A stretch of 64,000 nt of DNA from an uncultured Mollicutes bacterium (GTDB lineage Bacteria > Bacillota_I > Bacilli_A > Acholeplasmatales > Anaeroplasmataceae). Of this stretch, positions 29,051 to 63,310 are shown one piece after another. The stretch is taken from the NCBI GenBank assembly GCA_945923475.1, contig CAMELE010000008.1, forward strand, positions 1 through 64,000. Reading direction: 5' to 3'. The position numbers and the translations under genes were made by a program. The first letter of the stretch is position 1; each line of letters opens with the position of its first letter. The notes beneath the pieces were generated by a model, which was not told where the DNA came from, ran no database searches, and saw only the letters and a program-made list of their open reading frames with translations.

Positions 29051-29998
29051 CTATTTTAATAAATACGATTCCAAAGCAATTGTCTTATCAATTTGCCCAG
29101 ATTTTATTTTATAATCTATATCAATTAAATCATTAATATTTCTTTTTATCTTATCCATACTAACTAATGATGCAGACTTCATCATATAATAAACTCTTCC
29201 AGGCTTATAATTAAACAAATTTGCAATATCATTCTTACTATAGCCCTTTTCTACTAAGGCTTTCGTTTGATACATTTCATTAAACTTATTAATAAGCAAT
29301 GAAATAATTCTAGATTCATCTTCATTTAAAACCATTAAATCATCATATATTTCCATAGACTTACGCTTGTTACCATCTATAACTGCGCTAACCAAATCGA
29401 ATATATTATCATCTAAATCTTTACTAACAAGTAATCTTACATCTGTAAACTTTATAATCTTATCCTCATATTTATATGTCATAAGCTTTTCAAGTTCTAC
29501 ATCTGCCCTCTCAAAATTGCCTTTAATTCTAAAAATTAATTCATCTACAGCCGTTTCATCATACTTATATCCTTTTTTAGTAAGATATGCTGTTATATAA
29601 GGCTTAATCTCTGTTTCCTTTGGCAATGAAACATTAATTATACTAGAGTTCTCCTCTAGTAATTTTTTTAGTTTTGAATCAATCTCTGATAGAGATTCAA
29701 TCATAATTATTAATGTTGTACTTGGAATTGGATTATTTATGTATTTAGTAAACGCATCTATAAGCTTAGAATCATATGACGAAGGCTTAGACAAAAATAT
29801 AGGATTTTTAACAACTACGACCTTGGTTGCAGTTAAAAACGGAATCATATTCAAATCCTCAAGTAAAAGAGCAAGTGATTCATCCTCTAAATCATGAATT
29901 TGTAGATCATATTCTTCATTAATTGTACCTAGCATTTCATTTAGCTTTTCATTATTTTTAACGGAGCTTTGTCCAACTATTAAGTATATCGGTTCCAT
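29051..29998 (-). CDS. holA: DNA polymerase III subunit delta
   Basis: A 315-residue clamp-loader subunit that opens the sliding clamp. It starts MEPIYLIVGQ, has the delta-type degenerate ATPase fold in residues 1-140, and a helical C-terminus with the NKFNEMYQTK segment. The order comEA-comEC-holA-rpsT supports the call. Its start lies 40 bases after the terminator of the structured RNA at 30043-30199. A TATAAT-like box at 30022-30030 can serve as its own promoter. Confidence 0.95.
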   Translation of the reverse strand: MEPIYLIVGQSSVKNNEKLNEMLGTINEEYDLQIHDLEDESLALLLEDLNMIPFLTATKVVVVKNPIFLSKPSSYDSKLIDAFTKYINNPIPSTTLIIMIESLSEIDSKLKKLLEENSSIINVSLPKETEIKPYITAYLTKKGYKYDETAVDELIFRIKGNFERADVELEKLMTYKYEDKIIKFTDVRLLVSKDLDDNIFDLVSAVIDGNKRKSMEIYDDLMVLNEDESRIISLLINKFNEMYQTKALVEKGYSKNDIANLFNYKPGRVYYMMKSASLVSMDKIKRNINDLIDIDYKIKSGQIDKTIALESYLLK

Positions 29999-30042
29999 CT
30001 TAACACATCCAATCCAATAAAATTATAATACATAAAGAGTGT

Positions 30043-30199
30043 AAAAAAAAGGCCTTTTTTCAAAGGCCCACAGCTTTTGCTCTTGGAATGGCTTTGCGTT
30101 AACCATCGTTTCTCAGACTCCTTACAATATCCAAGACTATTGTATATCCATCTTGCACATATACGTGCCATAGGGAATTCCTTTCATCCCTTCCATCTA
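30043..30199 (-). ncRNA. Strongly promoted structured RNA, family not identified
   Basis: About 157 nt between a near-consensus promoter and a GGCCTTT/AAAGGCC terminator with eight T residues (30043-30068). Foldable parts on the minus strand: AGGGA/TCCCT; GCAC/GTGC; TACAATA/TATTGTA with loop GTCTTGGA; and ATGGTT/AAGCCAT. The loop CTTGGA can pair with TCCAAG (30082-30087), making a pseudoknot. It holds ACGCAAAGCC, shared with the GEMM-I aptamer, but the rest does not fit that fold. It could be a member of a known Bacillota RNA family such as raiA or 6S RNA, or new. It lies between comEC and holA. Confidence 0.7.
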
Positions 30200-30204
30200 C
30201 TTAT

Positions 30205-30233
30205 ATTTTATTCAATGTAAGCGCTTTTGTCAA
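30205..30233 (-). promoter_or_regulatory. Promoter of the structured RNA
   Basis: -35 TTGACA (30228-30233), 17-bp spacer, -10 TAAAAT (30205-30210), minus strand. This is one of the best sigmaA matches in the window. Confidence 0.85.
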
Positions 30234-30249: not shown

Positions 30250-30540
30250 TTAAAGCTTTTCTACATCATCAGGCTCAACATTAACAGTTATACCTTCAAG
30301 AGTAACATCAAATGCCGCTGCAAGTAAACGATAAGGGTCATCTACTAAAACTTTTGAGCCTTTTAAAGCATTACTAAATACAACTGGATTTGGAATATCT
30401 ATTCCATATCCCTTTGCTTTTTCTAATAACCTTAAACGCCTTTGCTCAGATTCACACATGATAGGTGTTTTTGTATCGCGTGACATTTCTAAAATTCTCT
30501 TTGTTTTTCCTGTTCCATTTCCACCGTAAATCAATTTCAT
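30250..30540 (-). CDS. Small P-loop protein
   Basis: A 96-residue protein starting MKLIYGGNGTGKTKRI, with a perfect Walker A (GGNGTGKT, residues 6-13) at the very N-terminus. A possible Walker B-like VLVDDP lies near residue 64. It is too short for a complete AAA or kinase fold, so it may be a minimal NTP-binding protein. The open frame runs to 30579, but that start has no ribosome site; AAAGGA lies 14 bases before ATG 30540. It sits where B. subtilis has yqzM, between comEC and holA. I do not know its function. Confidence 0.65.
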   Translation of the reverse strand: MKLIYGGNGTGKTKRILEMSRDTKTPIMCESEQRRLRLLEKAKGYGIDIPNPVVFSNALKGSKVLVDDPYRLLAAAFDVTLEGITVNVEPDDVEKL

Positions 30541-30571
30541 TATTCTTATACCGTTCCTTTCCTTAAGTCCA

Positions 30572-32704
30572 TTATACATTAGAAGCTATTTTTTTAAAAG
30601 CGTTCTTTAAAATTATTATTGTATTTTTATCCTTATTAATTTCAAACCTATATTTATTACTAAATACATTGATATAAATATTTCCAACCTCGTCAGTTCT
30701 ATATATATTAGCATCCTTAAGCTTAACAAGTGTTTCTTTATTTGGATGTCCAAATTGATTATTTTTACCTACACTAATAATTGCATTATCAAATTTACAG
30801 TTATTCATGAAAGCTTCACTTAAGCTACTATTAGAGCCATGGTGAGGCACCTTTAAAACATCTACGGCTAGTCTTTTACTAAAAATAAGTTCTTCTTCCT
30901 CTTTTTCCATATCTCCTGTGAATAAAATTGTTGTTTTGTTTATCGTTGCTTTAAATACTAAGCTGTTATTGTTCATTTCTGTATTTTTTATTACAGGGCC
31001 TAGAAATTCAAGCTTTATATCCGCAATTATCTTCGAGTCTTCGTGCTTAACCTCGTAGCTTTTTAAAACTAATTTTTTCAATTCCTTTATTTCACTTGAA
31101 TCATCAAAAGCAGAGGAAATCAAGCAGTTTACTTTATATTTATCTATTACATCCTTTGCCGTATCTATATGATCATTATCTGAATGGGTTATTATTAAAG
31201 TATCAATTCTATTAATACCTAACTCATCTAATCTATCCAAATTATTATAGGAATCTATTAATATATTTCCTTTATTAAATGCTTTAGATATTAAAATTGA
31301 ATCTCCTTGCCCTACATCTAGCATTATAACTCTATCATAAGGAATTATCTTATTGTAATTTATTAATAGCAAACACAACCCTATAAAATACAATATGTGC
31401 TTAAGCTTAAATGCTTTTGTTTCTATTTTTATAAACAAAAATATAATCAATCCATAATATAAAATAATCATTATAGGAGTTAGAGTTGGAAATCTTATAA
31501 CAAAAAATGATATTGAATCTAATTTTAGAATTAAAAGCTCAAATACTTTATACATCTTACTTAATATAATCCAAAGACCCGGTAATATTAATAAAGCATA
31601 TGTTGATGGCAATATTATCACTGAAAACAATATTAAGATTATAGGACTAATTATCATTGTTAATAAATTTACCTTATTTGCGACTGAAATCACTAAGGGT
31701 GCACTAACTATAAAAGCCATAATCGCCATTTTATAGCTACCCATTATTTTGTTCTTATCATTTATTATGGATGAACCAATAATTATAAAAAATGTAACAA
31801 TAAAGCTTAATCGTAAGCTTAATGAATATAAAGCCATAGGATTTATGATCACTATTAATAGGAAAGCTATTGAGCATATATCTAGTTTTGTTAGATTAAA
31901 TTGTTTGTAAAAATTTATTTTTGTTATTATATACATTAAGGTAGCTCGCACTATTCCATATGAGAAATTGCATAAAAAGGAATAAAAAATTAAAAAAAGT
32001 ATTATTACTATATCCTTAACAAATGAGTTTTTCGTCAATTTTGACAATACTTTTTCAAGGATACCTGCTATTAAGCTTACATGAAATCCTGATATGCAAA
32101 AGAGATATGATATCCCTAAATTAGATATTGCATCCTTTATTTCTGTATCAAACTCATTTTGAGCAAATACTAAGCTTTTTAAATATAAAAATGATTTATC
32201 ATCTAACCTTTTGTCGTAAAATTCTAATAATTTGCCTTTAATGGCATATACACTAAAGCCTTGACTGAAACTGGCACTTCTTGAACTCATGGTATTATAT
32301 ATTCCTTGGCTCTTTAAATAAATACTATATTCGCTATAATCAAGTTCTTTAAATGTTCCATTAAAAGTTGCCTTATAACCAATATAAACTGAATCCTCTC
32401 CATAATAATAAACCAAATACTTCTTTATTCCATTTTGAATAGTTAAAGCTTGATAATTATCATATTGCTTTATATTTATTACAAAACCTTTTAATTCGTT
32501 ATTATTTGGTATAGGCAAATATAAATATAAAAAGCTTAACAACATAAGATAAATAACAATTAATATTAAAAGCCTAAGCTTTAAAAATCTAATTTTAAAT
32601 AAATAAATTAAATATATAAATAAAACAGCTAAATACCACAAGGATACTAAAGATAAGCCAATTAATGCAACTAATATAGCATAAAAATGCCATGTATTAG
32701 ACAT
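30572..32704 (-). CDS. comEC: ComEC/Rec2 DNA uptake channel
   Basis: About 710 residues. The N-terminal half has a competence domain with many membrane helices (including SYLFCISGFHVSL and a GIVRATLMY segment). The C-terminal 250 residues form a metallo-beta-lactamase-like domain with LDVGQGDS and HSDNDHID. It forms the channel through which single-stranded DNA enters the cytoplasm and may degrade the other strand. ATG 32704 overlaps the comEA stop codon (ATGTCTAA); an earlier in-frame ATG at 32725 is possible. Together with comEA it indicates at least part of a transformation apparatus. Confidence 0.93.
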   Translation of the reverse strand: MSNTWHFYAILVALIGLSLVSLWYLAVLFIYLIYLFKIRFLKLRLLILIVIYLMLLSFLYLYLPIPNNNELKGFVINIKQYDNYQALTIQNGIKKYLVYYYGEDSVYIGYKATFNGTFKELDYSEYSIYLKSQGIYNTMSSRSASFSQGFSVYAIKGKLLEFYDKRLDDKSFLYLKSLVFAQNEFDTEIKDAISNLGISYLFCISGFHVSLIAGILEKVLSKLTKNSFVKDIVIILFLIFYSFLCNFSYGIVRATLMYIITKINFYKQFNLTKLDICSIAFLLIVIINPMALYSLSLRLSFIVTFFIIIGSSIINDKNKIMGSYKMAIMAFIVSAPLVISVANKVNLLTMIISPIILILFSVIILPSTYALLILPGLWIILSKMYKVFELLILKLDSISFFVIRFPTLTPIMIILYYGLIIFLFIKIETKAFKLKHILYFIGLCLLLINYNKIIPYDRVIMLDVGQGDSILISKAFNKGNILIDSYNNLDRLDELGINRIDTLIITHSDNDHIDTAKDVIDKYKVNCLISSAFDDSSEIKELKKLVLKSYEVKHEDSKIIADIKLEFLGPVIKNTEMNNNSLVFKATINKTTILFTGDMEKEEEELIFSKRLAVDVLKVPHHGSNSSLSEAFMNNCKFDNAIISVGKNNQFGHPNKETLVKLKDANIYRTDEVGNIYINVFSNKYRFEINKDKNTIIILKNAFKKIASNV

Positions 32705-51143: not shown

Positions 51144-51362
51144 AAAAAATAAAAAAGTCATCCTTAATCTAAGGACGACATTATCGCGGTACCACCTTAG
51201 TTCAGAATAAAATTATTCTGCCCTCAACTTACCTTAACGCGGTATAACGGGCTTGATTAGAGCCACTAAAAAGTGAATTCAAATAGTATGCAATAGGACT
51301 TTCACCAACCGTCCTCTCTCTAAATAACAAAAGCTATTCTACTAGTCTTTTTTTCGTATTAT
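51144..51362 (-). promoter_or_regulatory. Phe-specific T-box leader
   Basis: On the minus strand: GGTTGGTGAAAGTCC stem I elements, a specifier region reading GAA-TTC-ACT (TTC = Phe), the T-box AAGGTGGTACCGCG (51185-51198), and a terminator stem GTCGTCCTT/AAGGATGAC (51157-51179) with six T residues. It controls pheST by sensing uncharged tRNA-Phe. Confidence 0.92.
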
Positions 51363-51373
51363 TATTCTATATA

Positions 51374-63218: not shown

Positions 63219-63310
63219 AAAAAAAAAGCTTATCACATTTAAATAAGCCGTTTTTTATCTTTCTTTTTTTCTATTTCTTTGTGGTATGAAAGCGTGTAAG
63301 CGCTATCACA
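63219..63310 (-). ncRNA. Candidate catabolite-controlled small RNA or attenuated leader
   Basis: A minus-strand unit of about 90 nt. It runs from a promoter at 63317-63344 to a stem GCTTAT/ATAAGC (63243-63248 with 63228-63233) followed by nine T residues. No reading frame is seen in it. It lies upstream of cse60, so it could be an independent RNA or the leader from which cse60 is reached by readthrough. A cre-like box sits at its start and another overlaps the -35. Confidence 0.55.
63295..63308. promoter_or_regulatory. cre box (CcpA site)
   Basis: TGTAAGCGCTATCA matches the cre consensus TGWAANCGNTNWCA at every position. It lies at the predicted transcript start of the small RNA, where CcpA binding would block transcription. 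Confidence 0.7.

Follow-up and report, generated by a model that had tools for sequence, protein, structure and literature searches.

The window, a stretch of 64,000 nt from a contig of an uncultured Mollicutes bacterium, carries on its minus strand (30233-30043) a sigmaA promoter followed by an RNA gene of some 158 nt that ends in a strong intrinsic terminator, with holA downstream and a small reading frame bearing a P-loop motif upstream (Table 1). The near-perfect promoter, the roughly 157 nt of foldable sequence and the strong terminator described in the original prediction were all recovered. The 17-nt promoter spacing is identical in two related genomes, G002 (TTGACA..TAGAAT) and G001 (TTGACA..TATAAT), and the G001 terminator lies at the same place with a sequence unrelated to that of the window copy. 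In all three species the RNA is on the holA strand, about 45–60 nt upstream of holA, and, as read from these signals, its own sigmaA promoter and intrinsic terminator make it a separate transcription unit.

A location between comEC and holA had been proposed. This held on the holA side but not on the comEC side, since within the window the 109-aa P-loop reading frame separates comEC from the RNA. Because comEC is not directly upstream of this frame in G001, what is conserved around the RNA is the P-loop ORF on one side and holA on the other, and the order small P-loop ORF / RNA / holA is common to the three species of the genus. The P-loop ORF returned no match against Pfam and NCBIfam and represents a small uncharacterised family of the ATP/GTP-binding type; conserved copies occur in 18 of the 160 order-level genomes, spread over five genera.

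Table 1. Coordinates of the RNA gene, its predicted elements and its neighbours in the window.
Feature	Position	Strand	Details
P-loop ORF, upstream of the RNA in 3/3 species	30250..30579	-	109 aa; motif GGNGTGKT(K)
sigmaA promoter	30205..30233	-	TTGACA (30233-30228)-17-TAAAAT (30210-30205); 11/12 consensus positions
cre/LacI-family-like operator (predicted)	30216..30229	-	CAAAAGCGCTTACA; over -35 and spacer; spacer conserved in 3/3 species
Stand-alone structured RNA	30043..30200	-	~158 nt; 5' start placed from the -10
Hairpin P1	30172..30191	-	AGGGA/UCCCU; AAGGAA/UUCCUU in G001
Hairpin P2	30155..30168	-	GCAC/GUGC; GCACC/GGUGC in G002; AUAAGUU/AACUUAU in G001
P3, two-part	30115..30153	-	Lower AGAU/GUCU; internal loop with GGAU; upper UACAAUA/UAUUGUA; loop GUCUUGGA
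Pseudoknot 5' arm, within P3 loop	30130..30136	-	UCUUGGA; two pairs changed on both sides
Hairpin P4	30088..30106	-	AUGGUU/AGCCAU; stem invariant in 3/3 species
Pseudoknot 3' arm, immediately 3' of P4	30081..30087	-	UCCAAGA; pairs with UCUUGGA
Intrinsic terminator	30043..30069	-	GGGCCTTTGAAAAAAGGCCT and T tract; 8-bp stem
holA (DNA polymerase III delta), downstream of the RNA	29051..29998	-	TIGR01128, E 3.5e-66

Conservation of the fold in three species

A BLAST search of 60 related genomes yielded one further copy of the RNA, in G002 (86% identical). A third, strongly diverged copy was located in G001 (L005:1252-1453), between the P-loop ORF and holA, and was found by holA synteny only. With the window genome these make three species of the genus, and the comparison is one of three sequences from MAG-quality genomes.

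Base pairs were tested for the two-part P3, P4 and the pseudoknot on a 77-column core alignment of the three species, with P1 and P2 falling outside this core. All 23 proposed pairs, pseudoknot included, were kept (69 of 69 cells hold standard pairs), and five of them changed on both sides: one in the lower stem of P3, two in its upper stem and two in the pseudoknot (U-A to A-U and G-C to A-U). None of 500 shuffles matched the pair conservation and two-sided changes of the real alignment, and when the partners were slid by 1–3 columns only 35–45% of cells were paired. The covariation in homologous gaps that had been named as a check on the original prediction is present, and it supports P3 and the pseudoknot across three sequences, two of which are close. 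P4 is neither supported nor contradicted, because its stem is invariant. P1 and P2 can be formed in each species, G001 included, from differing sequence.

The proposed pairing of CTTGGA (30135-30130) with TCCAAG (30087-30082) was likewise borne out, as both segments are present and complementary and covariation supports the pseudoknot. In the window copy the helix extends to UCUUGGA/UCCAAGA, a 7-bp duplex worth about -8.1 kcal/mol in isolation. G002 shares this length, and the G001 helix has 6 bp (-4.0 kcal/mol in isolation). The nested minimum-energy fold of the window RNA, at -41.9 kcal/mol, has a z of -2.4 relative to dinucleotide shuffles and beats 197 of 200 of them, a modest result that would be weak evidence if alone. 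It is the comparative evidence from the sequences, i.e. the conservation of pairs in three species, that we regard as decisive for the RNA.

The predicted promoter operator

Promoter spacers are normally free to vary. Here the spacer is nearly frozen among the three species (promoters TTGACAAAAGCGCTTACATTGAATAAAAT, TTGACAAAAGCGCTTTCATAGCTTAGAAT and TTGACAAAAACGCTTTCATAGCATATAAT) and reads TTGACAAAA[AG]CGCTT[AT]CAT, with a core of AAA[AG]CGCTT[AT]CAT. The consensus of the catabolite-responsive element (cre) is TGWAANCGNTNWCA, and the box corresponds to its right half and centre, agreeing by eye at 9 of 11 informative positions and departing from canonical cre at the two left-most bases, where TG gives way to the CA of the -35 box. 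The RNA gene accordingly carries at its promoter a conserved cre-like box, the operator type of CcpA-repressed small RNAs. Searching with TTGACANAARCGCTTWCAT, one mismatch allowed, gave matches in 15 of 160 genomes of the order versus one match for the reversed control pattern, and within the genus the RNA promoter is the sole match in each genome. Outside the genus the box precedes glgA at three sites (one NCBIfam-tested, two by eye), a lipoprotein gene adjacent to one for alpha-amylase at three sites (one Pfam-tested), a gene for a LacI-family regulator and a thiolase gene.

The best NCBIfam model for a LacI-family protein encoded by G000 is CcpA (TIGR01481), at 290 bits versus a cut-off of 442, and the genome shows no enrichment of strict cre sites (3 pattern matches vs 5 for the control). 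On the strength of the frozen spacer, the occurrence of the box before carbohydrate genes in the order and the encoded CcpA-like protein, a predicted LacI-family operator at the RNA promoter is well supported. CcpA is a plausible candidate for its reader; given the sub-threshold score, the off-consensus operator and the lack of strict cre enrichment, the repressor may be a different member of the LacI family. The original prediction of an abundant RNA, drawn from promoter strength, is unsafe: with a conserved repressor-type operator over the -35 and spacer, abundance is probably conditional. None of the observations hints at a connection with sporulation.

Elsewhere in the window, a perfect cre consensus (TGTAAGCGCTATCA, 63295-63308) lies near a pectate lyase/CBM77 gene, the strict cre places of the genome numbering only two.

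Distribution, family assignment and proposed role

Covariance model R1 gave strong scores in just three members of the genus among 160 genomes of the order, and nothing credible among 395 class-level genomes, both scans having been run with Infernal's strict filters, which very divergent copies may escape. Weak R1 matches in the order and class (E 0.0004-0.03) were inspected one by one and taken as chance: several lie inside long reading frames, among them the two class-level matches, or have a helix deleted. By inspection, no such RNA follows the P-loop ORF homologues of four other genera. Phages, plasmids and IMG/VR (the latter scanned with one strict P4 pattern only) returned no copy. The best reading of these searches is that the RNA is genus-restricted and known from three species.

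That the RNA could not be placed in a family was upheld when Infernal was run against Rfam 15, where the window RNA reached no family's gathering threshold and no credible match was obtained. At E <= 10 the best matches of the window and G001 copies were Histone3, SpF56, MCS4 and GibS, all far below threshold. Homology to MCS4 (RF02713), a Mycoplasma small RNA, was rejected: only the G001 copy matched (23 bits, E 0.25, gathering score 56), through a weakly aligned hairpin with a CUU-containing loop, the window copy was unmatched, and matches in relatives were weak and scattered. The sole gathering-level Rfam match in the window is a T-box leader (RF00230, 116.6 bits) at 51168-51363 on the minus strand.

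A divergent raiA or 6S RNA had also been suggested, and neither fits, as neither model matches the locus at E <= 10 and the fold is not the 6S rod. raiA (RF03072) is a structured RNA of Gram-positive bacteria, with a model of 209 positions and thus of roughly similar size, but it is unlisted for the locus at that threshold and is ruled out by its model; RF03072 was found in none of 41 relatives, and control genomes likewise gave no match. No description of an RNA between comEC and holA was found in the open literature, and the main text of intergenic-region surveys from 2021 and 2024 mentions neither gene. The locus is a genuine small RNA gene that we could match to no described family, and it constitutes a new RNA family of a known kind, the operator-controlled stand-alone structured small RNA.

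With regard to function, we think it probable, though with considerable room for doubt, that this gene encodes a genus-restricted, catabolite-repressed small RNA acting in trans. A CcpA-like repressor of the LacI family would bind the operator over the -35 and spacer and block transcription in preferred sugar, and the RNA would be made once repression is lifted, i.e. when that sugar is exhausted; we infer such sugar-dependent repression and release because the operator is conserved and of the cre/LacI type. The transcript would fold as P1-P2-P3-P4 with a loop-to-tail pseudoknot and may help the cell adapt to its carbon source. Pairing with mRNAs would be the likeliest mode, ahead of binding to a protein. 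A fixed antisense seed is not evident, as no unpaired stretch of classical-seed length is invariant across the three copies.

RsaI (RsaOG) of Staphylococcus aureus contains a pseudoknot. It is a stand-alone small RNA whose transcription CcpA represses in glucose, a block that glucose starvation lifts (PMC9266662), and the control proposed here is likened to it. The two RNAs nevertheless share no sequence or covariance-model match and come from different lineages, and the window RNA, unlike RsaI, has no visible CU-rich seed.

A different mode of action, which we consider somewhat unlikely, is that activity resides in the compact pseudoknotted core and not in an antisense seed, the catabolite-controlled RNA then binding a protein (e.g. 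via repeated ANGGA sites) or a ligand in trans. Were this true, a new RNA class would be added, and in a gut lineage that is akin to the wall-less bacteria and has hardly been explored for regulatory RNAs. It is unlikely that the RNA binds or titrates a protein, CsrA-like or of another RNA-binding type, through ANGGA motifs repeated in P1, at the 5' end and within the internal loop of P3. Each of the three species has 4–5 such sites per RNA against about one expected (mononucleotide shuffles, P 0.003-0.014), with one at the P3 internal loop throughout (AUGGA/ACGGA); however, the motif was picked after looking at the sequences, the remaining sites are not position-conserved throughout, G002 having lost the one on the 3' side of P3.

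An orphan riboswitch or leader attenuating holA would agree with the strand and the short distance to holA kept in three species, and the compact conserved pseudoknot core resembles an aptamer, but we judge it quite unlikely. The terminator is strong, its GGCC arm has no upstream anti-terminator partner (by inspection), and its sequence is wholly different in G001. Promoter-like TATAAT/TATACT sequences also stand between terminator and holA, and an operator-controlled promoter would be odd for the leader of a replication gene.

A divergent 6S RNA is very improbable. About a third of the 6S (ssrS) genes of lactic acid bacteria have, as here, a cre site overlapping the -35 of a stand-alone RNA gene (PMC8414754), and the size is similar. 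However, the 6S model gave no match to the locus at E <= 0.5 any more than at E <= 10. Nor do the four hairpins and pseudoknot of this fold, in which P3 and the pseudoknot are supported by covariation, make up the long closing stem, large central bulge and apical stem of the 6S rod. 6S is ruled out by model and architecture, the ends of the RNA not being paired in a closing stem, and its gene neighbour in lactic acid bacteria is rarA, as opposed to the P-loop ORF and holA.

That the fold arose by chance in a neutral intergenic region would suit the modest z of the nested fold, but five pairs changed on both sides and an operator conserved in three species make it scarcely credible. Least of all do we credit a small protein gene, for although a 63-aa frame with an ATG (29980-30171) overlaps the RNA, it runs through the terminator and has no counterpart in G002 or G001, and across species the changes are frame-changing indels and pair-preserving substitutions; coding was rejected in general, with different open frames in each species, no conserved one, and stops in all three frames of G001.

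The small RNA at this locus adds a covariation-supported family to the gut Bacilli, in a lineage that has seen little study, and offers a concrete candidate for its regulatory cue, namely carbon source acting through a repressor of the LacI family. Should such control be confirmed, RsaI and the 6S RNA of lactic acid bacteria would gain a further, apparently independent companion among structured RNAs governed by a catabolite repressor.

Separately, the exact promoter-operator TTGACAAAAGCGCTTTCAT occurs in another genome (G152, L074:1501-1640) with a TAATAT -10, followed by ~130 nt that are apparently non-coding and end in a terminator-like hairpin (GGCTTTTAG...CTAAAAGCC; fold z = -2.2). It may encode a further small RNA under operator control; no sequence similarity to the window RNA is visible.
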